Below, one piece after another: positions 914-57,842 of a stretch of DNA of 64,000 nt. The notes beneath the pieces were generated by a model. The model made no database searches. It saw only the letters and a program-made list of their open reading frames with translations, and was not told the DNA's origin. How positions within the stretch are numbered: position 1 is the first letter of the stretch; every line of letters starts with the position of its first letter. This DNA is from Blastomyces gilchristii SLH14081 (lineage: Eukaryota; Ascomycota; Eurotiomycetes; Onygenales; Ajellomycetaceae), in assembly GCF_000003855.2 (NCBI RefSeq), contig NW_003101663.1:609312-673311 (forward strand). The letters are read 5' to 3'. Both the position numbers and the translations under genes were made by a program.

Positions 914-925
914 TCATCTATTACT
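914..925. repeat. Left target-site duplication of the SINE
   Basis: TCATCTATTACT here is repeated exactly at 1998-2009. The same site without an insert is seen in copy A2 around 57805-57840 (reverse strand relative to A1), so the 12 bases are a true target duplication. Confidence 0.9.
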
Positions 926-1006
926 GCCAGCGTGGCCCAGTTGGTAAGACTGGTAACCAAGGCCGCACACATTAGAGGTGCGTGGGTTCGAATCCCACCG
1001 CTGGCA
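926..1006 (+). tRNA. tRNA-like head of the SINE (not a functional tRNA by appearance)
   Basis: A perfect 7-bp acceptor stem (GCCAGCG with CGCTGGC, discriminator A) and a perfect 5-bp T-arm (GTGGG TTCGAAT CCCAC) are present. The D-stem has one mismatch that a G-to-A change would explain. The length is 81 nt. The anticodon arm is poor: the only loop with T at position 33 would give anticodon AAC on a stem with two mismatches, followed by GCAC/GTGC, which resembles a class II variable arm. I therefore read it as a tRNA-derived promoter module, not a host tRNA gene. It starts directly at the target duplication, as expected for the 5' end of a retroposed transcript. Scoring by a tRNA covariance model would settle the identity. 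Confidence 0.55.
933..995 (+). promoter_or_regulatory. Internal RNA polymerase III promoter (A box and B box)
   Basis: The A box TGGCCCAGTTGG is at 933-944 and the B box GGTTCGAATCC at 985-995. Both agree with the eukaryotic tRNA consensus; the spacing is 40 bp. They would allow Pol III to transcribe the SINE from within. A TTTT run near 1298 could act as a weak premature terminator. Confidence 0.75.
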
Positions 1007-1671
1007 CCTGCCACTTCTTACCCATGAAAGCCCCCATGTAATAGAGGCTGAGCCTAATTAGTAAGGCTTGGTGCGGGGTAGAACTCTCTACTGCAAGCCA
1101 AGCCACTAGTTAAGTGAGATCCTGCGAACACCCACCAGGGCCGGCATGAGGTGCCAATGTCCCACTATCCTACTGTGCACCCGTCAAGGTTCTAACGATA
1201 TAGAGTCAAGCCTAATGTAGTGATTATACACTACTTAAGCAAGTCCCTAACTAGGGCCGCCATCGGAGCCTAGCTCCCCCCCAAATACAGGGAATGATTT
1301 TGAAAACCGCCCGACTAGCAGGCCTAGACGCGCATCTAGGCCCTAGACAGGGCACCCTGATAGGCTAGTGCCTGCAAGCTCACTGCCAACCCCTAATACT
1401 GGCAGGGAGGACTGCAGTCATCAAGCCTATGGTTAGTCCCTAACACGGGGCGAGGCCACGACGGCTGATTGGTAGGCCTATGGGCATCTAATGGGGCCGA
1501 GATCAGCAACCGGAAGCTTGGTGTGTACACCACCAAGTGGGCGGTGGCAGCCACTAACTAACACCCCTGGAAATTAGTGGCTGGCCTGAGAGGACGGACG
1601 CGGTGGTTGGTTAATTATAGGGGGTTAAATGTAATTAGCTTAAGATGTATCCTGCAGGTGGCTAGCACCTG
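1007..1671 (+). ncRNA. GC-rich structured body of the SINE, origin unknown
   Basis: This part has normal to high GC content inside a very AT-rich region and no recognisable coding frame. It contains strong hairpins: GGCTTGG/CCAAGCC at 1065-1071 and 1098-1104 enclosing GTAGA/TCTAC; GTAGTG/CACTAC at 1217-1234; GGCCTAGA/TCTAGGCC with a 6-nt loop at 1321-1342; and CAGCCACTAA/TTAGTGGCTG at 1548-1557 and 1574-1583. These suggest a folded RNA. I do not recognise it as 7SL, RNase P RNA or rRNA. It has no second copy in this window. Either the body came from a structured host RNA or it is an old SINE core. Confidence 0.5.
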
Positions 1672-1997
1672 TAGTCTTTTTCTGTATCTTTTTCTTTCAA
1701 TTTCTTTCTATCTATCTATTTAATGTGTCTATCTTTGAGACTGTGTTCTTTCTCTCTTTTCTTTTGTCATGATATTGTCAAATGGTTTCAAAGTATTAAA
1801 AGATGTTAAAACACTGCAATTTGTAAACAGTTTTTATATTCTGGGCTGGAATTTTCTGATTTTGCATATCTGAAATTGATGAATGTACAATAGTTAACTT
1901 TACAGACATAGAAAAAACTCTGAGAACTAAAGTTCTTAGATAGATGTCATAGTCTCTGACTGTATACATCTATAATTGAAGAATAATAATAATAAAA
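1672..1997 (+). repeat. LINE-derived 3' region and AAT tail of the SINE
   Basis: About 320 bp that align, by eye at roughly 95 percent, with the reverse complement of 7560-7870 and of 41664-41990. The match starts abruptly in a pyrimidine-rich tract (TATCTTTTTCTTTCAAT) and runs to the end. Just before the tail are an imperfect CTGAGAACT...AGTTCTTAG hairpin and a region around AGTCTCTGACT; the tail is a short AAT repeat ending in AAAA. In SINEs such a shared 3' end is the recognition site for the partner LINE's reverse transcriptase. Confidence 0.85.
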
Positions 1998-2009
1998 TCA
2001 TCTATTACT

Positions 2010-5439: not shown

Positions 5440-6393
5440 ATCTTCTCAGTTTCTTTTCTTCTTTAGCTTCTTATAATTACTGATATAGTAATTACCAGCT
5501 CTGCAGTTGAAATAGAGATCTTTATCAAATCTTTTTTAACATTTCTTTACAGTGAGTGAAGAATTAGAATACTTGAAATTCTTCTTTACTTTCTCTGCAC
5601 TGAAGCTGTTATAACACTGTTTAAATTCTATTATTAATTACTTAGAAGAGATCTTATTAATCTTTTTCTTAAAGAATTGATTATTTAAATAGATTTAGAA
5701 AGTCAGATTGACAAGCTCAGTGTAATTAATTAATAAACTCTGATATTATGATATTATTATTCACATCTTATAAGTCAGCTTTGTAAGATAAAGCTGTATT
5801 TTTAATTGATTCAAATCATCAGTTAATTTCTTCTATTATTTTTTAAATCTTGTATTGAAATTGAAAGAATTTTCATTATTTTATTAATATAATAAGTTGA
5901 ACTACTGTGCTACTGTGAAGCTGTAGTTACAGTGATCTTTGATTTAATTCAGTAGAAAGTTCTTGAATTCTTCTCAAGTTATAACAGTATTGATACACTC
6001 AAGCTCTCTCTTCTTAATAGCTTAAGTAGTCACAGAGATGTCTTTAAGAAGATTGATGATGTATATTACTTATATCTCATGAGTATTATACTGACTCAGA
6101 TTAAGGTGAAATTTCTGTTCAAGAATACAGATAAAGCTGTGAAATTCAGATAAGATATTTCTCTTATATCTTAAAGAATCTCTGATCTTAATCTCTCTAT
6201 CTTCATAATAGATGTAGGTGTGTAGAGGCCGCAGTGATAACAGAGTGATTGAAGAGCTTATGTTAAAATATGCAGTAGATTCAGAAATCTTGAATTTCTG
6301 CTGAGATAGAGATGTACACACTCTAGAAGATAGTGTAGTATTTCTCTCAGAGAATGAAATTAAGTCAGTCTCAGCATAGATGCATAAAGTCAT
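5440..6393 (-). pseudogene. A1 gag
   Basis: The first 107 codons (6393-6070) are uninterrupted and start MTLCIYAETD; the same start occurs in A2 at 53416. Downstream, near 5520-5467, is the nucleocapsid zinc knuckle. It keeps the first Cys, but the His and the last Cys have become Tyr (FNCRAGNYYISNYKK), whereas A2 keeps His and the last Cys. CAC-to-TAC and TGT-to-TAT are single transitions. Gag forms the virus-like particle in the cytoplasm. The reading frame between these two parts is broken by stops. Confidence 0.75.
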
Positions 6394-7544: not shown

Positions 7545-7559
7545 TCAAGAGCTTCATTA

Positions 7560-8749
7560 TTACTATTATTATTATTCTTCAATTATAGATGTATGCAGTC
7601 AGAGACTCTGACATCTATCTGAGAACTTTTAGTTCTCAGGGTTTTTTCTATGTCTGTAAAGTTAACTATTATACATTCATCAATTTCAGATATGCAAAAT
7701 CAGAAAATTCCAGCTCAGAATATAAAAACTGTTTACAAATTGCAGTGTTTTAATATCTTCTGATACTTTGAAATCATTTGACAGTATCATGACAAAGGAA
7801 AAGAGAAAAAGAACACAGCCTTAAAGATAGACACATTAAATAGATAGATAGAAAGGAATTGAAAGAAAAAGATAAAGAAAAAGATAAAGTAAAGAGAGAC
7901 TGTAACAAAACAAATTATTAAAAGATAGTGTATAGCTGTTTTAACAGACTATATCTGATTGATTTCCTTCTTTTCATATTCAGATAATTCTGAATTTAGT
8001 CATTTTCTTATAGCTGCTTGAGTTTCTGATAGAAAGTCTATTAAGTATTTAATTCCTGTCTCAGTTAAGAATAAGAATCTTATATTTAATTAATTTAGAT
8101 TATACTTCTCTTTCAATCTGACTCTGAGACTATTGTATAATACACAGTGCATTACAATATGCTCAGAATTCTCATTTGCATTGCAGAATGAGCATTCTAT
8201 TGAGTCAAATCTATCATTAAATCTTTATATATAAGATTTGAAATAGCCATGTCCTAGTTTCAGCTGTATTATAGATGAGAATATTTTCTTTTTACATTTA
8301 ATTGAACAAGATTTTTACTTGAGCTTTGTTTCAAATCTTGAATAATGTATACTCTTCTTTTATTTCTGCCAGCTTTCATTTCACTTGTCTAAACAAGATT
8401 CTTTTATTTTTCTCTTTATAAAAGATCAGAAGATAATTTTTTAAATAGATCTGCTTAATTCTGCACTCTTTTTTACAGCTGAATCAGCCAATTCATTGCC
8501 ATGAATATTCATATGAGCAGGAACTCAGTGCAGATGAATTATCAGCTTTGATGTTCTTCTCTTTTGAATTTTCAAAACAGAGTTTAAGATCAGTTCAAGA
8601 TTCATTTGATCATTATAAATCTGACTATTTCTAAGTCTTTTTAAAGTAGCTTGACTATCAGAGAATATTCATGCCTCTTTCAAACTATTTCCTCTTTTAT
8701 GAGATTTTATTTCTATGAGTTTGAAAGCTTTCACTATTGCAAATAGTTC
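7560..8749 (-). mobile_element. 5'-truncated copy of the Tad-like LINE
   Basis: This is the 3' terminal 1190 bp of the LINE, homologous to 41664-42835. It ends in an AAT-type repeat tail on the minus strand and is flanked by a perfect 15-bp duplication, TCAAGAGCTTCATTA, at 7545-7559 and 8750-8764. It contains the RNase H end (HMNIHGNELADSA motif near 8530-8480), the C-terminal Cys/His segment and the 3' untranslated region with two hairpins. 5' truncation with a target duplication of this size is typical of target-primed reverse transcription. It inserted into the copia F integrase/RT junction. Confidence 0.9.
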
Positions 8750-11760: not shown

Positions 11761-12336
11761 GTTATCCTCCAAGATCAATCGCCTGGTTTTGTCTGTATTT
11801 ACGTACACCTCCTCTTCCAAGGTCGGCCAATTCCCACCCGCTATTCAAGGTGGGGGGAGATCACATGTCAAAACTATTTCAGTTTATAGTCTACCAATAT
11901 CTAGGAAGAGTGAAGAAGATCATAACATAAGACAACAAGAGTGAAAATGAAGGGTCCCTGAAGCAAGGGAAAATATGTAAATCGCAGCCGGAAGCGCCAT
12001 GCTGGACCATGTTTCCCGCGTGACATCTTAGGAGCAACGGGCTGGACAAGATGGGGGAAATTAAATAAGAACATCAGTAAGCCTTTTTACGATTACACAA
12101 AGAAGTTTGTTCCCTTTTCGGTTCAGTCACATGACATGTGGCAACTTGGCGCTCAGCCGGGAACAACCTAATTCCGGACATGACGCCTGGATGACGAGTT
12201 TGCGAAACGGCGCTTCACATTCAGCATCTCACCTTCTTCCACCGGGGAAGTAACGGGGGTCATTCATTATACAGCTCCAAATGTTTTGGCAACATCTGGA
12301 ACTTACCTGGCTATCTTCGGTTTCTTACCCGCCCTC
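11761..12336. other. Upstream intergenic region of the kinase-like pseudogene
   Basis: GC-normal, apparently single-copy DNA. I see no open frame with recognisable motifs and no RNA gene. A GGTGGGGGGA purine run lies near 11850. It probably holds the old promoter of the gene starting at 12337. Confidence 0.4.
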
Positions 12337-13186
12337 ATGCCTGGGCGCACCAGTCTGCCTCGCGGCCCAGAGGGTACCATCTACGAGGCGAGCGGATTCG
12401 ACGACGATTTAAGGATTGAGATTGATCCCACAAAGATCAAGTTTATCAAAGAGCTGAAAACATCAGAGGTGTCATCAATATTCCATGTGAACTATGATGG
12501 CATGCCCCGCGTTCTGAAAGTTGTAGGTGCCTTGGTTATCAGTGCATCTCAAACGCACCAGCTCTGACCCTGTCTAGTTCCACAATGATGAAGATGCTGG
12601 GTATGCTGATGATGAGGTCCGTGACTTGAATCGCGCTCGCTGCGAAATCCGGGCTTATTGCAGCCTCAAGTGATCTGGCATATGTGACAGGGGCTATGTG
12701 CCACAGTTTTATGGATACACACTATCCTTGCACCCAACTGCCCTTGTCCCTCATCTGGATGCCTTTCAACACGACGCTGGCCTCTCAAGTGCAATTTTGA
12801 TGGAATACCTGCTGAATCCTTTGATAATGAACTGCATCACTTATAGCAAAGAGCGAATGGCCAAGGCAGTCAAAGACATTCAACAGATACATTCAGCTTT
12901 GGTTGAGCACAATGACCCTTATCCCAAAAATATTATGATTGTTCCTGACGACCCGGAAAGAGTTGTGTGGATAGATTTTGATGTTGCAATCACTTACCCT
13001 GATAGCATCTACATTGAAGATAGGGAACATGGCTGGATTGAGATTGAAACTAGGCGGGTTGAGAGTGTTGAAGTGAAACTTGTTGGTGCCTCAGACAATG
13101 TTTGCTCCTTGTTTCCTTGCCACTGACAGATTTTACAGGCAGATGATCAGAAACAGGGTCTCCCCCCGAATACAAAATATTACTAG
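12337..13186 (+). pseudogene. Small protein-kinase-like protein, broken by one in-frame TGA
   Basis: Three exons: 12337-12522, 12578-13081 and 13139-13186, with introns of 55 bp (GTAGGT...CTAG) and 57 bp (GTTGGT...ACAG), both with a CTGAC-type branch site. They join in phase to about 245 codons ending GLPPNTKYY. Kinase landmarks in order: Lys in PRVLKV (about residue 61), Glu in RARCEIRAY, the catalytic loop HNDPYPKN (about 173-180, pattern HxDxxxxN) and WIDFD (about 193-197) in place of DFG. A TGA at 12671-12673 (about codon 94, probably an old CGA) interrupts exon 2, so this copy is dead unless the stop is read through. The start at 12337 is the first ATG in frame; an ATG at 12281 is in another frame. 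The family looks like short fungal kinase-like proteins; its substrate is unknown. Confidence 0.75.
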
Positions 13187-13515
13187 GATGACGGTTCGTC
13201 CACACACGCATACAGACCGACCCCAAGAGCATCACACCCTTCCGATAGTGAGGAACCAGGAAGTATGTATCTGTCTATTGGTCAAGTCTCACGAAGACCA
13301 AGCGATTCGTGTACCAAGCTATAAATTTTTCGCATCCCTCATCTCTACACTCTTTCCATTTCAATTGTACCTACCCAAACGATCGTAGACCCAGTAGTCG
13401 GAATAGTTTAGGGAGCCGTGGTATAACAAAAAATGAGAGCGAGAGAGGAGAGGCAGGAGCTCTGGAAATTTTTAACGCCCTAGCATGTCGCACAATATAC
13501 AACCTCTGTAGTGTT
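13187..13515. other. Intergenic region between two convergent pseudogenes
   Basis: This is the 3' flank of both genes, GC-normal. Short overlapping frames here have no recognisable motif. No terminator-like element was identified. Confidence 0.4.
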
Positions 13516-14290
13516 CTATAGAAGCTGCCAGTCATCATCCACTGCACCCAACATCCCGAGATACCAAAGTCCCATAAGAACGGTCAAACGCCCAGGCCCT
13601 CCTGCTTCCCATGGTATGGCCCGTGCTACCAACAGGTTGCCATTCGCATCGAGTCTCTTAATAGGGACCAATTCAGTATCAGTTAGGGCAAAGCCGTACC
13701 GCGCGTTGTGCTGTTTCATGTAGAAGTTGATCTGTGACAGAACCTGCAAATACTCCGTGCGATCTATCTGCGACTCCGCTGCTGCCCAGTCAGATCCCCA
13801 TTTCCATGACACCTTTAGGTCTCCTGGACAGCGATTTGGGGAGGAGTTGAGAGTACTGCCGGCTCGGAAAAAGGCGATATCAGGACGGAAGTTGTTGATA
13901 ATTTGAGCTGCATCACCTATGTCAACTGTGATGAGAGTAAGATGCAGATTGGCAAGCTGAGGTGCAAGATGCTGGAAACTGCTTCGCAGCGCACGGCGTA
14001 GTCAACTTTGAACATAGGTAGTGAAACGGACTGCGAACATCGGCTCAGTGTTTATAGGCTGTGGAGGAGAGTTCGGCATTGGTTCATTCTCAATTTGCAC
14101 TTGCTGAAGCAAGGTCCCATAAAGCTGCATAATATGGGCGTAGGTGAATTCAGACCATTGACCAAACGCTGTTGATCTGCCTCCAACTATATTGGTCATT
14201 TGTCGTGTTGGACGTTTTGTTAGTTTCTTCTGTAGGGAGCCCCGGCGGTGCCACCATCAAATAGTCCAGAAGTCTCTGAGTGTTGGCCAT
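13516..14290 (-). pseudogene. PD-(D/E)XK nuclease-like protein, broken by a TGA and a frameshift
   Basis: The likely start is the ATG at 14290-14288 (MANTQRLLDYLMVAPPGLP). This frame runs to about 14165, where a one-base shift moves into the frame holding AFGQWSEFTYAHIMQLYG. After FTTYVQS comes a TGA (an Arg position) near 14003, and the same frame continues to a stop at 13516. The core RPDIAFF, then about 16 residues, then GDLKVSW fits the PD...(D/E)xK signature of restriction-endonuclease-fold nucleases, followed by a helix EYLQVLSQINFYM and ARYGFALTD. It converges on the kinase-like gene 330 bp away. Such nuclease and kinase domains are known as partners in eukaryotic Crinkler-type proteins; linking the two here is inference. 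Confidence 0.65.
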
Positions 14291-14706
14291 TATCAATTCT
14301 GCTCTCTTAGAAATAATGACCATGGAAAGCGAAACGTCTCCATCTGTGGAATATCACAGCGCTTTATCAGCCCAGCCAATGCTGGAAGCGCCGTAATTAC
14401 CCCACCTACCTTGAGCTTCGCAAGATCCGTGCATAGCCCTCAGCGAATCGATAACACTGTCATCCCTGCACTGACATGGTATCTGGCATTTCCTCCGGCC
14501 AATGGAGTTGGGACACGTGGATTGTATTGCGGTGGGTATGCGGAACTTGTGGAAGGTGTAAAGCTTGTGTGATTGAAAGGTTGCTAGCTTGGTGTATACA
14601 GAAAACTTGACCTCGCTAAGTGCGCCACTTGACCTCGTTATGTAAGCTGACCTCGCAAATGTGGCCCGTGCCACTACCTGACCTCGCTCAATACATCTTT
14701 TCTTGT
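14291..14706. repeat. Upstream region of the nuclease-like gene with four TGACCTCG repeats
   Basis: TGACCTCG occurs at 14608, 14630, 14648 and 14679, spaced 22, 18 and 31 bp, the first two in a longer TTGACCTCG context. They lie in a GC-normal strip right before the AT-rich copia LTR. They could be subterminal repeats of a lost DNA transposon or binding sites. The rest of the strip has overlapping frames on both strands (14192-14572 plus, 14354-14719 minus) with no recognisable motif. Confidence 0.5.
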
Positions 14707-15402
14707 AATTTGAAACCACTCAATTATTTACCATCAATTCTACAATCAATTCAAAATCAATTTAAAATCAATTTAAAATCAATTTAATACTGAAATTATT
14801 CTTGAATTTAATAATAAAGTAAGTATTTATATAATTTACACTGAATTGATTATTAATTGATTTTCAATCAATTGTTAATTACTTAAATATATAGATTAAA
14901 TTTATTTTTATTACTATAATTAATTAATAATCAATTCTATAATTAATTCAAAATCAATTTAAAATCAATTTAAAATTAATTTAATACTGAAATTATTCTT
15001 GAATTTAATAATAAAGTAAGTATTTATATAATTTACACTGAATTGATTATTAATTGATTTTCAATCAATTATTAATTACTTAAATATATAGATTGAATTT
15101 ATTTTTATTACTATAATTAATTAATAATTAATTCAAAATCAATTCAAAATCAATTTAAAATTAATTTAAAATCAATTATTAAATATTTTTATCTTAATAT
15201 ATTTTAAAATTCTGTAAAATATCTCTTTATATTCTATATGAATTTATCTATTTATTTAATTAATTATGAATCAGTTATACATGCTTTTTAATTAATTAAT
15301 GAGCTGAATGAATGAATAAATGAGTGAATTGAAAGATTAAAAGTCAATTACTAACTGATTATTACTGTATTATATGAGATCAGAGTTATAATTATATAAT
15401 AA
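14707..15402 (-). repeat. Copia long terminal repeat D1, left part, with internal minisatellite
   Basis: Extremely AT-rich, built of TCAATTTAAAA-type short repeats inside a tandem unit of about 200 bp (14735-14935 and 14938-15125). The same DNA occurs at 39389-39893. It is cut at 15403-15407 by chromovirus B1 and resumes at 29899. Orientation is taken from D2, where the copia coding end and a purine tract adjoin the repeat. The left edge with the gene island is near 14707. Confidence 0.65.
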
Positions 15403-30467: not shown

Positions 30468-30637
30468 GTTTCTCTGTCTGAAAAGAGATGAATGTCTGAA
30501 AATGAGATGACAGGAAAAAAAGCTAAATTTAATAAGAAATGAGTTAGGCATTTTTCAGATGCAGGTTAATATTCTCCTTATATGAGAAGTGAGTAAAGAA
30601 AGAGATTGAAACAATGAGATAATAATAACACAGTAAT

Positions 30638-31143
30638 TAGACTGGCCGCTGAGACTATGAATTTCACATTTGATCTCATTTGATCTGGTCTCATACATTT
30701 CTTGGCGTGAATCCCGCTGGGACTGGCTATCAAAAAAACAGATAAAGTGACTATATATCAGATCTTAAAATGAAACCATGACTTGAAAAAAATGAGAAAG
30801 TAGTCTCATTTGATCTCATTTAGTTTCATTCTTAGCATAAAGTTACTATTTTTAGACATTTTAAGGTTTTTTTTAGACTATTTTTAATTTTTTAAAAAGT
30901 AACACTTTTTGATAATGCTTAAATGAGATTTAAAGTCATTTAAAGTAATAAAAATAATTTAAATTGAGAAGTGAAAATCATGGTCTCATTTGGAAAATGT
31001 GACAAGAGTAGACAGTAAGTCTCACTGAGACAGTATGAGACTACTATCTAATGTTAAAACTGTGTAATGGGATCAGTCGAATTGATAATGAAACTATCAA
31101 AAAATCTGGTCCTGGTCCCAGACACGGTCACACGGTCAGTCTA
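30638..31143 (+). mobile_element. 506-bp hAT-like MITE, copy M1
   Basis: Ends TAGACTGGCCG and CGGTCAGTCTA are imperfect terminal inverted repeats. It is the same length as M2 (47667-48172) and M3 (52205-52710). It has no coding potential. A conserved GC-rich patch (GGCGTGAATCCCGCTGGGAC) lies near 30705. No 8-bp duplication is visible at this copy, unlike M2. It lies in the 3' part of element C. Confidence 0.75.
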
Positions 31144-41650: not shown

Positions 41651-41663
41651 TCACAGTGAGAGT

Positions 41664-41760
41664 TATTATTATTATTATTATTCTTCAATTATAGATGTAT
41701 GCAGTCAGAGACTATGACATCTATCTGAGAACTTTTAGTTCTCAGAGTTTTTCCTATATC
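41664..41760 (-). promoter_or_regulatory. LINE 3' terminal hairpins and AAT-repeat tail
   Basis: On the minus strand the element ends with CTGAGAACT...AGTTCTCAG (9-bp stem), then the region around AGTCTCTGACT, then CATCTATAATTGAAG and a run of AAT units. The copy at 7560 has the second stem in full (GTCAGAG/CTCTGAC). The same block ends the SINE. A repeat tail in place of poly(A) resembles the I-type LINEs. Confidence 0.7.
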
Positions 41761-41989
41761 TGTAAAGTTAACTATTATACATTCATCAATTTCAGATATA
41801 TAAAATCAGAAAATTTCATCTCAGAATACAAAAACTGTTTACAAATTGCAGTGTTTTAACATCTTCTGATACTTTGAAATCATTTGACAGTATCATAACA
41901 AAGGAAAAGAGAACACAGTCTTAAAGATAGACACATTAAATAGATAGACAGAAAGAAATTGAAAGAAAAAGATAAAGTAAAGAAAGACT

Positions 41990-44900
41990 GTAACAAAACA
42001 AATTATTAAATAATAGTATATAGCTGTTTTAACAGACTATATCTGGTTGATTTTCTTCTCTTCATATTCAGATAATTCTGAATTTAGTCATTTTCTTGTA
42101 GCTGCTTGAGTTTCTAATAGAAAGTCTATTAAGTATTTAATTCCTATCTTAGTTGAGAATAAGAATCTTATATTTAATTGATTTAGATCATACTTCTCTT
42201 TCAATCTGACTCTGAGACTATTGTATAATGCACAGTGTATTATAATATACTCAGGATTCTCATTTGTATTACAGAATGAGCATTCTATTGAGTCAAATCT
42301 ATCATCAAATCTTTGTATATAAGATTTGAAATAGCCATGTTCTAGTTTCAGCTGTATTATAGATGAGAATATTTTCTTTTTACATTTAATTGAACAAGAT
42401 TTTCACTTGGGTTTTGTTTCAAATCTTGAATAATGTATACTCTTCTTTTGTTTCTGCCAGCTTTCATTTCACTTGTCTAAATAAGATTCTTTTATTTTTC
42501 TCTTTATAAAAGATCAGGACATCATTTTTTGAATAGATCTGCTTAATTCTGCACTCTTTTTTACAGCTGAATCAGTCAATTCATTGCCATGAATATTCAT
42601 ATGAGCAGAAACTCAATGCAGATGAATTATCAGCTTTGATATTCTTCTCTTTTAAATTTTCAAAACAGAGTTTAAGATCAGTTCAAGATTCATTTGACTA
42701 TTATAAATCTGAATATTTCTAAGTCTTTTTAAAGCAGCTTGACTATCAGAGAATATTCATATCTCTTTCAAACAATTTTCTCTTTTATAAGATTTTATTT
42801 CAATGAGTTTGAAAGCTTTCACTATTACAAATAGTTCAGTATCAAAGACTTTACATTCACAGCCTAGATTTCAGAAATCTGAGATAAAATTGATATTATC
42901 TTCAGTATAAGCAATGCCTGTGTCTAATCTATTCAAGTTCTCATTTTTTGAGTCATCTGAATAAATCAGAATAGAGTCTTTTATATTGATTGTAGAAATT
43001 CTCTTCAAATACTGTTCATATTCTTTCTCTTTTGATAGTTCACTTATTTATAAGTCTATAAGAGATTCAAGCTTTTCTCTTCAGAGAGATAACTTCTCAT
43101 GATTAACTTTTTCAACATTTAAAGAAGAAAATTGATTTTTAATCAGAGAGTATAGTCTGTACAATTGAGAAGACATTTTCTTTGAAGAACTATTTTCATT
43201 TCAATCAAGAAATCTATTTCAATCCAGTTCATTTTCAGAGTTAATTAATGAAAATGAAGAAGAGACTCTTTCTCTGATTATATAATTTAAGCTCATCTTT
43301 ACAACTCTCAGAGTATAGTTTATACAGGCCTTTTCAAATCTAATAGCAGAAGAAGGAATTGAAGCTTCAATTTCCATTACTTTAATAGAAGATGATTTGA
43401 ATGCTTTCAGAATTCTTCTCAAGGCTCTGTTTTACAGACTTTGAAAGAGTTCAGTGAAATTCTCTTGATTATTTCATCAAACTTGAACTTCATAATTAGC
43501 TACTGATGTAATACAGGCTATATATAACTGTCTCATAGCCTGGAAGAATAGACCTCTCTCTGTATTTGATAGTCTGATTATGTTGTTCAATAGTCTTTCT
43601 GCCTTGACAGTTCTTTGTTGAATGTGATATTTAAAATTCAACTTAGAGTTTAATCATACTTCTAATCATTTGACATTTACACTGGGTTTAATCTCTCTAT
43701 TTAAAAGAGTTAGAGATAGTTCTTTCTCATTGAATCTAGAAAAGAAATGAATTAACTCAGTTTTATCTATATCAAATTGAATTTGATTGATATCTGCTCT
43801 AACAAAGATTTTCTTTGCAGCTTCTTCAATTACTTTCAAATTCTCTTTGATAGTTTTTAAGCTGTAGACTAGATCAATATTATTCATATAACTCAGAGAT
43901 CACACTATTCTCATATTTCTATTTTTGAATAGATATGCAGTGTATATTGTAAATAAAATGAGTGAGATTGAAGATCTCTGTGATACTTCTATTTTTATCT
44001 CAGTCTTGTCTTATTTCATTTTATCAAAGAAGAGTTATATAATTCTTTTAAATATAAAACAGTTAACTCATTTTATTAGAGAAAGTGACAGTTTTAATAT
44101 CTTCAATATCTGAATTAACTTTGACTTTGAAACATGATTAAATGCTTCTTTTATATTAATAAAAACTACAGTTGAGACCAGATTCTCATACTTTGCTATT
44201 TAAATATCATGAACAACTGAGAGAACAGTGTTAATTACAGAACACTGTTTTCTATCTCTCATTTATTCACTGAATAAAAGAGAATCATCTATAGAGCTTA
44301 TAAAAGATAGTTAAGTAGCTATTATCTTTTCTAAAACCTTTTCTAGGCAGTTCAATAGAGATATTACTCTATATGACTTAGAAATTGAAGTTTTTCTATT
44401 AGATTTTACAAGAATCACTTCAGTGGCTTCTCTTCAGCATTCAGAATGATATTCATTTTTCAAGAGATTGAAAAAGAGCTCAAAATATTCATTCTTTAAG
44501 TAGAAATATGTATTTTGAATAATCAAGTGATTAATTAAATCAGGATCTGCAGCAGTTTTAACAGAACTTGAGAAGATAGCTGACTCTAATTCATCTTGTG
44601 TAAGATCAGGTCATTCTCAGTCATTTTCATTAATATAGTTGAGAAGTGATATATTCTCTTTCTCTGAATCTGAATCTGAATCTGGTGAGTTCTGAAAGAG
44701 AATTCTCATGAAAGCTTGACATTTTTTCTTAAAAGAGTTTGCTGTACATGATTCATTCTGAAACTCATATTCTAAGACTGAAAGTTTTGCTACACTTCTT
44801 GTTTTAGTATAGTTAAAAGCTTTAAAAACTTTCTTCTCTTATGCTTCTTCAAGGAATTTATTTCAGCAGTCTGTTTTAGCTCTTTTAATATCTGAAAAGT

Positions 44901-46000
44901 ATTCATTTCTGACAGCTTTGAACTCTTCATCAGATATTACATTATTCTTTCAATCTCTTCTAGCAGTAGCTAATTCTTTTCTTTTAAATGAGATATTCTC
45001 ATTTCATCAAGATTTTGAATACTCAGAAGATTTTCTCTTTGAAATATTATCTCTAATACTTGTTAGAATAATAGATGTAATAAGCTTCACTCTATTCTCA
45101 AGTATTTCATTTGAGATATCTTGATCAGAATTTCAATATAGCTCATTCTATCTTTCAGATTTTAACAGTTTTATACTTTCTTCAACTGCTTTTCAATCAG
45201 CTTTTTCAAAGTTATACTGATTAGAGAGAAGAGGATTTTCACTCATTTGTTTTTCACTCAGTTCAATATTAAATTGAATAATCTCATGATCTGATTCTGA
45301 TGTCTCATTTGAATTAATAAATCAGTTTACAAGTCTTCTTTTCATTAAATTTTGTGATATGAAGATTAGATCTATAATAGACTTCTGTTTCATGTCTTTT
45401 CTAAAGAATGTTTATTAATCAGACTTATTAATCAAATCTATTAAATGCTCAAAAATTCATTCAACTAGATTATCAGCTCTCACTGCTCTCTTGTATTCTG
45501 AATTTCATCAGAAATGATGTGTATTGAAATCTCCTGCAATTATAGAGTTTCTTGATGAAGTTATGTTCAGAAATTCTCTATCAATTGTTCAGATATTGTT
45601 ATTTTTCTTCAATGACTTTTTATTATAGATATTTATAAGCTGTATAGTATTAAACTCATTTTCTTTATCTATAATATCATTCACCAGAATATCAGGGTCA
45701 GACATGATATTAAATCTTAGATTAAATTGATATCTTAATCTCTTTCTTTCATATATCACTACTCTTGACTTTATCTCAGACTTTTAAGATAGAAAGCAGT
45801 AGTAGCTTGAATGAGAAATAATGTAATTTTGCTCAGCATCAAAATTCAATTCCTGAAGTAGTACAAAATCAACTTTTTATTCAAATATAATTTGAAGACA
45901 AGAATAAATACAATTTGAGTTTCTATTCACATTATTTTGAATAAATGTGATTTTTGAAGAGTTTTTAAACTTTTTTTATTGTTTTTGTTGTATATTCATA
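41990..46000 (-). pseudogene. LINE ORF2: endonuclease, reverse transcriptase, RNase H
   Basis: Minus strand. The endonuclease is at about 45960-45350, with LLQELNFD, IIAGDFNTHH (45537-45512) and KSIIDLIF, the conserved acids of the exonuclease/endonuclease/phosphatase fold. RT is about 44650-43220; its active site at 43890-43879 is YMNN (family YxDD), followed by IDLVYSLKTIKENLK and the clean stretch to 43666 (FDIDKTELIHFFS). RNase H is about 42850-42560 and ends HMNIHGNEL (family HxGIxGNExAD). The Cys/His end near 42300-42220 resembles the LINE C-terminal zinc finger. It nicks the target and reverse transcribes in the nucleus; this copy has lost both RT Asp residues. Confidence 0.85.
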
Positions 46001-46029
46001 CTAAAAGAGAGTAGAGATAGAGTAGAATC

Positions 46030-47636
46030 TAGTCACTATCATCAGATAGTAGATTATAACTATTTTAAAAAGTAGGAATCTCAACTGCTTACATTATATC
46101 TAGTTTATCATCAGAGTCATTTCTCAATTCTCTAATCTTAACAGAAGTTTAAGAATTCAAATTCTGTTTACATTTAGCTGGAGAATTGAAGTTTGAAGAT
46201 TTAGATAGTTCAGAGTTTCTTCTTTTTAAGCTTGCAGTTATAAATCTACTAGCTTGACTCTTCTCTTCAGTTCTAGATTAACTTTGAGCTTCATCTTTTC
46301 TTCAGTTCTTTTGAGTTCTAGAAGTAAACATACATTCTTTTGAGCTAGATGCATGTTTTTCTTTGCAATTAGAGTACTTAAGCAGAGTATGTTAACATAT
46401 TTCATCTCTTTTTGAGCATATTTCATATTTATACTCACTAGTTTTGTGATCTCTGGCACAGAATGCACATTTTGAGTCTCTGAAATAGAAGATTGTAAAG
46501 TGTTCATATCTTTGACAGTTTGAACACTGTGTTTGAGCTTTGAGATTCATTCTTGAGTTTTTGTATTTATGAACTCTCATTTTCAAACCTGTCACTCTTA
46601 CTTCAGAGATCTTCAACTGTTCAAGTGTCTTTATATATACTAGAACAGAGGCATTTCTTCTGCTTTGTCTGAACTCAATTGAATTTAGTTATATAGGCTC
46701 TTTTCTCAGTTGAATAGAGTTGTATTCTTCTAATTCATTTTTGAGAAGTAGTATTTCTTCTTCACAGTCAAAAATTTCAACTGAAATATTATGAAGAATG
46801 AATTTGTCTCACTTTTCATCTCTCTCAGATAGAATTTTTATGTTTAACAAAGATTCTACTACTGATTTTCAGAGATTCTCATTCTGAATAAGGAATTCTG
46901 CACTGAATTCAGGCATTGTAGTCAGAATGATAGAGTTTTCAAAGAAGAATGACTCAATTGAAGCTATAACTGATTTTTGAACTTTAATATCAGTCATTAA
47001 CTGAGAAAAGAACTGCTGATTAATTTCATTTCTGATTCTGAAAATGAGATTTGAATTTAGCTTGTTTCTTTGCAAGATGTTCTGATTTGAGACTCTGAGA
47101 ATAAGTCTTCTATTTCTGAAGATTTGAAAGTTTTTCTTCTTTTGCATTTTTTTCTCTACTTTTCTATCAATAGAAGTATGAGCATTATTCTTCTCAGTTT
47201 TCTCAGGATTTTAAGCATGTTTTGAGATAGCAGGTTTAGAGACAGCAGATTCAGCTGCTTGAGTATACATTTTCTTCTGATTCAAAGAAGAAGAAGTAGA
47301 AAAGAAGAAAGAAGAGCAAGATAAGAAGTCAGTAATTGTACTAGAAATTTTCAATGTTTTTTGAACTGTGTTTGAAATTCCAAGTTTGAACTTGATCATC
47401 TTCTGTAGTTGTCTATTCTGAGTATAAAGAATTAACAGAACTTCTTCATTTATCTCACTCAGACACTGCTTTTCAAGAATCTTACTTGCTTTTTCAAGTT
47501 TCTGTATTTCAAGAACTTGTTGTTTCTCTATTTCTTCTTTCTTTCTTCTCTTCAGAATTTCAATCTCAGAAATAGTATTTGAGAAAGCATCTTTTTCCAC
47601 ATTAACTGAGTGTATTTTTGAACATATCTTTCTCAC
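46030..47636 (-). pseudogene. LINE ORF1 (Gag-like, three zinc knuckles)
   Basis: Starts at the ATG at 47636 (MRKICSKIHSVNVEKDAF). The first 141 codons are open and rich in Glu/Lys heptads (coiled coil). One frame continues through 47147-46869 and 46616-46392, with stops between. The knuckles are CSNCQRYEHFTIFYF, CAFCARDHKTSEYKYEIC and YSNCKEKHASSSKEC, typical of Tad and jockey ORF1 proteins. The protein binds LINE RNA. The ATG lies about 30 bp downstream of MITE M2 on the minus strand, so M2 separates the leader from the start. Confidence 0.8.
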
Positions 47637-47666
47637 TCAATGAAAAGTTGATCAGACTGTTTCAAT

Positions 47667-48172
47667 TAGACTGGCTGCCAGGACCATGAATTTCACATTT
47701 GGTTTCATTTGATCTGGTCCCATACATTTCTTGGCGTGAATCCCGCTGGGACTGGCTATCAAAAAAACATGCAAAGTGACTATATATCAGATTTTAAAAT
47801 GGAACCATGTCTTGAAAAAAATGAGAAAGTGGTCCCATTTGGTCCCATTTAGTCCCATTCTTGACATAAAGTTACTATTTTTAGACATTTTAAGGTTTTT
47901 TTTAGACTATTTTTAATTTTTTAAAAAGTAACGCTTTTTGGTAACGCTCAAATGAGATTTAAAGTCATTTAAAGCAATAAAAATAATTTAAATTGAGAAG
48001 TGAAAATCATGATCTCATTTGGAAAATGTGACAAGAGTAGACAGTAAGTCCCACTGAGACAGTATGAGACTACTATCTAATGTTAAAACCGTGTAATGGG
48101 ATCAGTTGAATTGGTAATGAGACTATCAAAAAATCTGATTCTGGTCTCAGACACGGTCACACGGTCAGTCTA
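47667..48172 (+). mobile_element. 506-bp hAT-like MITE, copy M2, in the LINE leader
   Basis: TAGACTGGCTG...CGGTCAGTCTA with a perfect 8-bp duplication, GTTTCAAT, at 47659-47666 and 48173-48180. An 8-bp duplication suggests the hAT superfamily. It keeps an unmutated GC-rich patch near 47730. No coding potential. It inserted after the LINE. Confidence 0.85.
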
Positions 48173-48180
48173 GTTTCAAT

Positions 48181-49811
48181 TGAGATATGTATTAAACTCT
48201 TTTAAAAAGTTGATCAGACTTTTTCAATTAAGAGGTTTCTAAGTCTGTTTTCAATTGAAAAGTTAATTAGACTGTTTCAAAAGAAGAATAAAAGACTTTT
48301 ATATATAAAATACCTGATTTTTTTCACACTAGTTCAGTAACTAGGTTAGATTTTTAAAGAGAATCTAATAAACTAAAATTGATTTTTAAGATAAATCAAT
48401 AAAATCTTTACAATCTCTTTCTTGAGATACAGTGAGAAAAAGTATGATATTAATTAATAATAAATCAGATAATATGACAGTTTTTGAGAGAAAAACTGAC
48501 AAAAAATAAATCAATTTTTTGCAGAGAAATTGATTAAAACTATTTAATTTTATTCTAAATCATTTAATTCTTCTCACACAACAAGTGTGCAACTCAAATC
48601 AGTTAATAAAGAGTGTAAAAAAGAATTAAGTATTAATGAAAGCTCTTCAGTCACTGAAAAAGTAATTCTTACTTAAAAGAATATGAAATTATAACAGAAA
48701 ACAGCTCTGTTTTTAATTCTTTATAAGAATATTGTATAAAACTCAGAGAAAAACACCTTACTTTTTCAAGAGAAGTAAAAAACTATTTCTAAGATCTTTT
48801 TTTTGCATTAACTGCTGCAGAAGAATGAGATAGAAACTGCTAAGATATACACTACTATATATTCTCTATCAAGACTTTCCCTCTTCAGAGTCTTGATATT
48901 ATAAAGAATATAAGTCTGTTTCTATATAATAATATAAATATTATCAGCAGAATGTAGAGAAACTGGTTATTTATATCTCAAAATAGAAGACTTTGTCAAT
49001 GATTATATTAATATAGAGTTAATTCTCAAATTCAATAGAAACCTAGTGTTGCTATTCTCAATCTCTTACAGAATCTATTGAATATTGAGATATTAAAACT
49101 ATATTTAATATATCTCACTGTGCAGGGATCAAAGGCTCAGTCAGATCTTGAAGTATACTGATTTTATAGTTATTGTGTCTGCTGATTATGTATCAAATAC
49201 AGTTGCTGAGGTATCTTTTTGTACTTTTCTGTCAGGGATGGGCCAGATTGAGAGGGGAGGTATGAGGGTGAGACTTGGCATTGATGTCTAGATACACTGA
49301 AGACAGACTGCAGAGATTGCACTTCAGAAGTGGCTGTTGATTATGTGCTTAATATTATCGCTGAGGTATCTTTTTGTATTTTTCTGCCGGGGATGGGCCA
49401 GATTAGGAAGGGTGGTACAAGGGTGGGACTTGGCGTTGGTGTTTTGGAACATCAAAGATGGACAGGGTTTTCGCAGAGGTCGCTCCTCAGATATCTTCAC
49501 AACTACAGATCAGGGATCTTCCAAAATCGAGAAGATTGGTGCATATGACTAGGTCTCTTCACCTTACAATTTGTATGGCAATTTGGCCCGGGGTTGTGGT
49601 GTGATAGGGGAGAATGAGGGATAATCCCACGCAGGAGTTTCGAACGCTGTCTGGTTCATGTTTGGCTGGATAACTCCACCACCACACGGGGTATGCGGTC
49701 GGCGATGGGGTCAAAATACTTGTATGATCGAGGGCTTTTCGATGAATCTATCGGCGGGTTCTTATTCGAAAAATCGAGCGAGTTCGTGATGGAGCGGTTT
49801 GACTGTTGATG
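48181..49811 (-). promoter_or_regulatory. LINE 5' leader with tandem repeats
   Basis: Noncoding. 48181-49130 is AT-rich, with repeats of AAAGTTGATCAGACT next to ORF1. 49130-49811 is GC-normal. At about 49177-49331 and 49332-49486 are two tandem copies of a 155-bp unit: the copy nearer ORF1 is strongly mutated to AT, the outer copy is not. Repeated 5' units are a known promoter design in some LINEs. The two short overlapping plus-strand frames at 49330-49552 lie antisense to the element and are not genes. Confidence 0.6.
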
Positions 49812-51957: not shown

Positions 51958-52204
51958 AAAAAATTAAAAATAGTCTAAAAAAAAATCTTAAAATGTCTAA
52001 AAATAGTAACTTTATATCAAGAATGAAACTAAATAGAATTAAATAAAATCACTTTCTCATTTTTTTCAAGTCATGATTTCATTTTATAATCTAATATATA
52101 GTTACTTTATATATTTTTTTAATAACTAGTCTCAGCAGAATTCACATCAAGAAATGTATAAAATCAGATTAAATAAAATTAAATATGAAATTCATAATTC
52201 TGAC
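51958..52204 (-). mobile_element. Truncated 506-bp MITE, copy M4
   Basis: About 247 bp homologous to one half of the MITE. It ends at 52204 some 10 bp short of the terminal repeat, directly against M3. It is very AT-rich, and its end (CATAATTCTGAC) derives from a CATGGTCCTGGC-type end as in M2. Confidence 0.6.
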
Positions 52205-52710
52205 TAGACTGACTATGTGACTGTATCTGAAATCAAAATCAGATTTTTTAATAGACTTATTATTAATTTAACTGATTTCATTACATAGTTTTAATATTAG
52301 ATAGTAGTTTTATACTATCTCAGTGAAACTTACTGTCTACTCTTATTATATTTTTCAAATGAGATTATGATTTTCACTTCTTAATTTAAATTATTTTTAT
52401 TACTTTAAATGACTTTAAATCTCATTTAAGTATTATTAAAAAGTGTTACTTTTTAAAAAATTAAAAATAGTTTAAAAAAAACCTTAAAATGTCTAAAAAT
52501 AGTAACTTTATATCAAGAATGAGACTAAATAAGATCAAATGAGACTACTTTCTCATTTTTTTCAAGTCATGATTTCATTTTAAGATCTGATATATAGTCA
52601 CTTTACATGTTTTTTTGATAACTAGTTTCAGTGAGATTCATATTAAGAAATGTATGAGATCAGATTAAATGAGATTAAATATGAAATTTATAGTCTCAGT
52701 GATCAGTCTA
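52205..52710 (-). mobile_element. 506-bp hAT-like MITE, copy M3
   Basis: Same length as M1 and M2, in reverse orientation, strongly mutated to AT (TAGACTGACTATGTG...GTGATCAGTCTA). It is followed at 52711-52728 by another isolated MITE end (GTTTCAGTGACCAGTCTA). No duplication is visible. 52729-52834 holds nothing recognised. Confidence 0.75.
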
Positions 52711-57400: not shown

Positions 57401-57842
57401 CTTTTTACTATCATCTTATAATAAAATATCTTCTCAGTATCACTTTTCATCTGCAGATAGATAATCAGACTGAATATTAGAATCAAACACTAGAATAGTA
57501 TCTTCAAGTATTCTATTTATATTATCAGAATGATTGACTCAAACATCTTCTAATCACTGAATTCATATATAATAATGTAAAGAATGTAATCTTAAAAATA
57601 TTTTCTTTCTATACTTATTATGAATATAATTCTTTATTACTCAGTAACATCATAAATAATATTTCAAAGAAAGAAATAGATAGTCAGAATATTAAACAGA
57701 TACAGAGAACAGAGTATCTCTCAGTATTAGAAGTAAAAGTGAGATTAAAACTTTTGAATAAAATTTATAAGAAGATAATGAAAAGTATTTACTATACTCA
57801 GAAGTAGTAGATAAAATACTATAATTAAAAATATCTTTCAAT
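54470..57842 (+). pseudogene. A2 pol: protease, RT, RNase H, integrase
   Basis: Protease is about 54510-54560 (LLDFKININ, family LLDSGAxxN). RT has LCIDYRDLN near 55245-55275 and the active site YLND at 55549-55560, followed by ILIFLKSEKEH. RNase H is about 56000-56450. The integrase core has an open stretch at 57172-57369 (FIVNLSKLTRVKEYNLILVI). The frame reaches KIYKKIMKS and stops at the truncation. Trp codons appear as TGA or TAG throughout. Confidence 0.82.

Follow-up and report, generated by a model that had tools for sequence, protein, structure and literature searches.

The insertion at positions 926–1997 of the window, by which we mean the whole stretch of 64,000 nt that was analysed, is very probably a bipartite retrotransposition chimera, in which the RNA of a tRNA-headed module, here called H, has been joined to a 5'-truncated LINE by recurrent template switching. 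The initial annotation had read the same insertion as a SINE of 1.07 kb with a tRNA head and a tail shared with its partner LINE, and as evidence for a new, unusually large fungal SINE family. Direct reading of the sequence placed an exact 12-bp target duplication at both ends of the insertion, and comparison with other copies gave the following features.

914–925, plus strand: target-site duplication, 5' copy, TCATCTATTACT (direct reading and flank comparison)
926–1674, plus strand: module H, 749 bp, non-coding and tRNA-headed, with a fixed 5' start and the fixed 3' end GTAG (comparison of genome copies)
926–1006, plus strand: tRNA-like head with a decayed D arm, its T arm and 7-bp acceptor stem being intact (Rfam RF00005 and fold)
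933–944, plus strand: Pol III A box, TGGCCCAGTTGG (sequence against the Pol III consensus)
985–995, plus strand: Pol III B box, GGTTCGAATCC (sequence against the Pol III consensus)
1652–1674, plus strand: 9-bp terminal hairpin, closed by an outermost base pair that coincides with the end of H, that is, the end of GTAG (fold)
1675–1997, plus strand: 5'-truncated LINE, the last 323 bp at its 3' end with the (AAT)n tail (similarity to other LINE copies)
1677–1681, plus strand: T5 run just past the junction, a possible Pol III stop as judged from the sequence
1998–2009, plus strand: target-site duplication, 3' copy (direct reading and flank comparison)
57603–57842, minus strand: homologous host repeat without insert, the empty site (alignment of the joined flanks)

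Direct reading, Rfam and similarity thus bore out the duplication, both boxes, the LINE 3' end and the AAT tail that had been noticed before, and only the end of the body had to be moved, from 1671 to 1674, beyond which other copies as a rule continue into a longer LINE piece. The empty site that had been suspected in the same window was also recovered. When the two flanks were joined with one copy of the duplication, they aligned without a gap to 57842–57603 (90.8% over 240 bp), and the absence of any gap indicates that the empty site is real.

Head and body of H together have 54% GC, the body being GC-rich, and the longest ATG open reading frame measures 24–49 aa across the 40 genome copies compared below. 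The A box at 933–944 and the B box at 985–995 agree with the Pol III consensus. As a tRNA, 926–1006 scored 34.4 bits (Rfam RF00005, gathering score 29); tRNA was the only family to pass the Rfam threshold in H, where it accounts for the first 81 of 749 bases, and a U6 snRNA was not found as the 5' part at this threshold. No tRNA was called by ARAGORN under the bacterial code. A genome pattern search for a parent tRNA with the intact D stem GTAAGGC (up to one mismatch) led to 75 sites, all with the H type GTAAGAC, and to no parent. Folding of the whole module gave z = −3.6 (20 shuffles), and the last 101 bases folded alone were unremarkable (z −1.3). A T4 run lies inside H in 40 of 40 copies. 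Such a run might terminate Pol III in some organisms and is thus a mild argument against transcription of H by Pol III over its full length.

The genome assembly (74.8 Mb, 75 contigs) contains one full-length fungal SRP RNA (135.9 bits), for which 0 of 14 control genomes had a match, and this supports a fungal origin. A search of the assembly with 926–1671 led to 262 first-look candidates. The best 40, ranked by similarity, which favours full-length H, were scored, and all of them were near full-length (93–100%); the 39 copies other than that of the window (L009–L047) were fetched with up to 2 kb per side. All 40 begin at the same base, and the 39 fetched copies have 39 different 5' flanks. 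Genome-wide, the H start was detected 131 times with up to three mismatches, 59 of these being exact. The LINE 3' part lies inside the fetched range in 27 of the best 40, two of which are cut by the locus edge, and 23 of the remaining 25 with both ends in view carry an exact duplication of 11–17 bp around the whole composite. Of the other two, L037 has a 15-bp duplication with one mismatch (seen by eye), and for L040 none could be detected. When 5' and 3' flanks were mismatched in 702 pairs, the longest repeat was 9 bp, compared to 11–17 bp in the 23 real pairs, so the duplications around the composites are not due to chance. Copies that share head and body and have duplications of their own, as the initial annotation had asked for, do exist, and since the tRNA-headed non-coding unit is multi-copy, the one-off chimera that it had allowed for is excluded.

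The best 40 copies keep H to about position 737–751 and then enter the LINE at differing places. The junction stretch was read at 87 sites, namely all 85 starts with up to one mismatch (39 from the first set and 46 new), L046 and one C27 site. L050 and L068 showed no H end within the fetched stretch; all other 85 are joined to the LINE, as a direct match shows for 84 of them and, for L052, a short remnant of the LINE cut by a later repeat. Subsequent reading of the 16 out of 47 exact H 3' ends that were not already covered, among them L122 as the far end of the interrupted L068 copy, led to 14 further ends joined to the LINE, one (L124) joined to another repeat and one (L125) with an unassigned partner. 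In total, 99 of 101 H 3' ends run into the same LINE, the ends read comparing with 128 detected genome-wide at up to two mismatches, and older H copies lying outside the set.

Among the 85 junctions, 62 distinct LINE positions were found, with up to seven junctions at one of them; merging positions within 3 bp leaves 57, of which 56 fall on the LINE copy used as a ruler (see below) and one is that of L052. The LINE part that follows H measures 307 to 1977 bp in the 25 complete composites and, by the ruler, about 4.6 kb in L011. The 3' part is hence a 5'-truncated LINE with a varying truncation point, fused directly and in the same orientation to H, with one pair of direct repeats around both, an architecture that corresponds to the MINE-type chimeras discussed below. 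The scatter of the junctions calls for many independent switches, as in MINE.

A classical tRNA-derived SINE of 1.07 kb, amplified as one unit together with its LINE-derived 3' tail, would account for the head, the boxes, the tail and the duplications, and the composites do share with such SINEs their non-coding status, the flanking target duplications and a tRNA-derived head with A and B boxes (as judged by the consensus). The window copy and L009 moreover have the same junction and the same LINE variant. Nevertheless, no single head-body-tail structure is common to the copies. A search with up to two mismatches found the window's own junction, 1674|1675, in these two copies only, other junctions differ from it, and the T5 run that immediately follows H could terminate Pol III transcription short of the tail. 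With the junctions scattered in this way the SINE reading is largely refuted, and we regard it as very unlikely. From the proposed SINE family there remains a multi-copy, tRNA-headed, non-coding unit with LINE-type duplications, but neither the fixed length of 1.07 kb nor the shared tail could be upheld, as the LINE pieces in the best 40 copies vary in length between about 0.3 kb and, by the ruler, about 4.6 kb. Rather than an inherited SINE tail, the most fitting reading of the LINE part is a LINE that was truncated at its 5' end and joined to H by template switching.

Sorting of H by transversions and indels distinguished seven patterns among the 40 copies. Different H patterns occur at the same LINE junction in L010 and L024 and also in L029, L032 and L037, so the same LINE point was used independently. 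From this reuse and from the scattered junctions, chimera formation happened many times independently. Some of the groups at one site, for example the seven copies at ruler position 6007, may include re-amplified chimeras. For the window copy and L009, whose LINE parts differ mainly at decay-type sites, one re-amplified chimera and two jumps at one point are both compatible with the data.

On the LINE side, a motif AAA|TC became apparent (A 54, A 38, A 41 | T 49, C 35 over 62 sites), which was built from decayed LINE copies by taking the majority of one or more other rows per site. TC directly after GTAG is present at 33 of the 62 sites (background 0.071, p 6e-22), and GTAG|TC was read in 57 of the 85 chimeras. 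In four of these the LINE majority has no TC, which is explainable by decay in two cases, the letters perhaps coming from H in the other two (L053 and L059). The TC may thus reflect a preference on the LINE side or pairing with the end of H. At −3 upstream of the junction there is a strong A (54/62), for which pairing with the H end gives no explanation. None of five usable 5' ends of LINEs without H begins with TC; four of them have duplications of 13, 10, 9 and 15 bp, L112 has no convincing one, and L106, with masked letters beside the end, and L107, which has no duplication, do not enter this control. A fixed donor end and variable acceptor points would also be expected if H RNA were trans-spliced to LINE RNA before reverse transcription. 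Splicing needs AG at the acceptor, however, and the LINE side is mostly AAA|TC with no AG, which leaves trans-splicing with an almost negligible probability.

The tail of the element matches two other copies in the window, with 91% (7884–7535, minus strand) and 90% (41981–41655, minus strand). Weak RVT_1 hits below the Pfam cut-off (E 5e-05, 1e-04 and 9e-04) were obtained in three of seven stop-free pieces of related copies, and together with the AAT tail, the 5' truncation and the target duplications they are the grounds for reading the partner as a LINE. Two copies in the window served for comparison.

41663–48303, minus strand: long partner-LINE copy used as ruler, 5' limit uncertain, holding a 508-bp repeat near 47667–48173 (junction mapping)
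7557–8749, minus strand: 5'-truncated LINE copy without H, with its own 15-bp target duplication (sequence comparison)

The repeat of about 508 bp occurs three times in the window, at 47667–48173 inside the ruler LINE, at 30635–31143 and at 52203–52695, and is missing from the LINE piece nested in L014.

H always stands 5' of the LINE part and in the same orientation in the junctions read, as would be the case if the LINE had H as its native 5' UTR and had given rise to the copies by internal deletion. Against this stands that the 5' break is constant and the 3' break variable, that 131 H starts (up to three mismatches) face 2041 LINE 3' ends detected genome-wide (up to two mismatches), and that H junctions also lie at several places close to the 5' region of the LINE (ruler 354–451), so that we consider a native 5' UTR extremely unlikely. 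When LINEs were collected without H as bait (18 sampled LINE 3' ends and one window copy), H was seen in none of the 19 within the stretch covered, although 12 of the 18 reached the stretch edge, so that H could lie further upstream. As H was the bait in every chimera search, the chimera counts carry no information on its share among all chimeras of this LINE. Insertion of H into standing LINEs was also considered and rejected: five of the 39 fetched copies have LINE sequence in their 5' flank, and in none of the five does it continue into the copy's own LINE part.

The two Pol III boxes, the fixed ends and the hairpin lead us to infer that H RNA is presumably a Pol III product with its 3' end at the base of the terminal hairpin. 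The LINE protein would start target-primed reverse transcription at the 3' end of the LINE RNA and, during first-strand synthesis, would leave this template part-way, preferentially at A-A-A|T-C, to jump to the 3' end of the structured, tRNA-headed H RNA of about 750 nt. Copying would proceed as far as the first nucleotide of H, and integration of the composite would leave one target duplication, usually of 11–17 bp. Target-primed reverse transcription with a template switch has been proposed in this form for MINE (PMC2104539) and for U6/L1 (PMC4476161).

The fixed start in the best 40 copies and the fixed end in all 101 ends read would imply full-length copies of one RNA. A free-standing source was looked for among these ends, which cover 83 of the 85 starts with up to one mismatch directly and L068 via L122, L050 being the one left unread. 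No undecayed free-standing H was present among the 101 H 3' ends of the 75-contig assembly. L052 and L095, where GTAG is followed by TTTT with no ruler hit, at first resembled free-standing copies but were rejected, as their first 24–38 bp match the LINE parts of other chimeras (82–87% in L012 and L030), and from base 24–25 onwards a later, high-copy repeat follows. In L124, GTAG|TC is joined to another repeat with 933 first-look candidates, and no duplication longer than 9 bp was found within 3.7 kb; this copy (C18:340480-341580) enters its partner, a different high-copy repeat also seen at window positions 49350–48919, at an internal point and is possibly a chimera with another RNA. L125 continues for 5–6 bp past H and then meets a repeat boundary. 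Both are decayed (83% and 82% to L009) and could be old free-standing H copies.

Within the template-switch model, H may be an ordinary host non-coding RNA gene that often served as second template and is absent from the assembly or decayed, a proposal we hold to be nearly as probable as not. The fixed full-length ends would fit, with parallels in U6/L1 and WEIRD/MGL, and L124 and L125 would fit as well if they are old free-standing copies. Since young H copies show next to no decay, there is or was some protected source. A tree computed from the H copies was poorly resolved (0 of 37 inner branches reached the support mark), and near-undecayed members occur in at least two H lineages, L009/L012 with 2 and 4 differences from the group majority and L021 with 4. 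Two such lineages side by side fit several sources better than one housekeeping gene and count, with the lack of an undecayed free-standing H among the ends read, against the host-gene reading; an unassembled H gene family is a possible source. Alternatively, and more tentatively, H could be a retro-parasite and not a host gene, consisting of a Pol III promoter and a structured RNA without a LINE recognition end, which would be copied only as the second template of the LINE in mid-transcription and whose chimeras would be its genes. This reading we consider possible but less likely than not. If it were true, WEIRD, for which likewise no gene has been found, would belong to this kind of element too.

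The nearest known system is MINE of Magnaporthe grisea, composed of WEIRD RNA and the MGL LINE (Gogvadze et al., 2007; PMC2104539). As described there, a full-length non-coding 5' unit (WEIRD, 1.1 kb) is fused directly and in the same orientation to variable 5'-truncated LINE pieces, junctions cluster at hot spots with a motif, duplications measure 10–20 bp and no solo WEIRD was found, which the authors attributed to the incomplete genome, WEIRD being thought of as an ordinary host non-coding RNA gene. H-LINE shares the architecture, the junction hot spots with a motif and the lack of a solo 5' unit, and is a chimera of the template-switch kind that works like MINE; as the likeness is one of architecture, we do not assign it to MINE proper. 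The two differ in that H begins with a tRNA-like Pol III head, whereas the main text of PMC2104539 nowhere uses the words tRNA, polymerase III or promoter, in the junction motif (AAA|TC compared to the GCC*A/U given for MINE), in the number of events (85 junctions mapped compared to the 33 chimeras with 28 junction sites reported there) and in the several donor lineages of H-LINE. The tRNA/Pol III head on the donor, the AAA|TC motif on the LINE side, the several donor lineages and the lack of an undecayed free-standing donor among the ends read set H-LINE apart from MINE.

In U6/L1 and other mammalian RNA-LINE-1 chimeras a structural RNA is likewise copied as second template in the same orientation (PMC4476161, PMC13174262), and duplications flank the U6/L1 chimera (PMC4476161). 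The donor in these reports is a known host gene, in contrast to H, which passes the Rfam threshold as tRNA only. AfuSINE2-1a from Aspergillus fumigatus is, like H-LINE, fungal and tRNA-headed with a LINE-related 3' end, which in its case resembles the 3' end of a Tad-clade LINE, but it is a short unit with the LINE-like end at positions 210–335, and no LINE fragment of variable length is mentioned in the passages on it (PMC5063351). No other paper on a fungal LINE chimera with a tRNA-headed donor was found among the entries listed in searches of the open-licence literature of PubMed Central.

The usual explanation for template-switch chimeras is that host RNAs chance to lie close to the LINE machinery. 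Here one tRNA-headed RNA, represented by several lineages, precedes this LINE at 99 read sites, and the ends read include no undecayed free-standing gene. The H-LINE case makes testable what WEIRD left open, namely whether such 5' units belong to the host as genes or are mobile and spread by way of their 5' side, and its junctions are a large natural data set on the jump points of a LINE reverse transcriptase.

Differences between the H copies (window 926–1674 and L009–L047) are mostly C>T or G>A (693/891). By context, decay affects 13% of CpG and 5–7% of CpC/GpG, whereas CpA (0.6%) and CpT (0.1%) are spared. For RIP, PMC2621366 gives CpA as the preferred context in most fungi, and with CpA spared in H the decay looks like an unusual process of the RIP or methylation type. 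In the window as a whole, CG and CC are depleted (0.17 and 0.38 of expected) and CA and CT are kept. In this otherwise AT-rich window, positions 12001–15000 have 38–48% GC, short open frames and one weak protein-kinase match, and are probably host genes.
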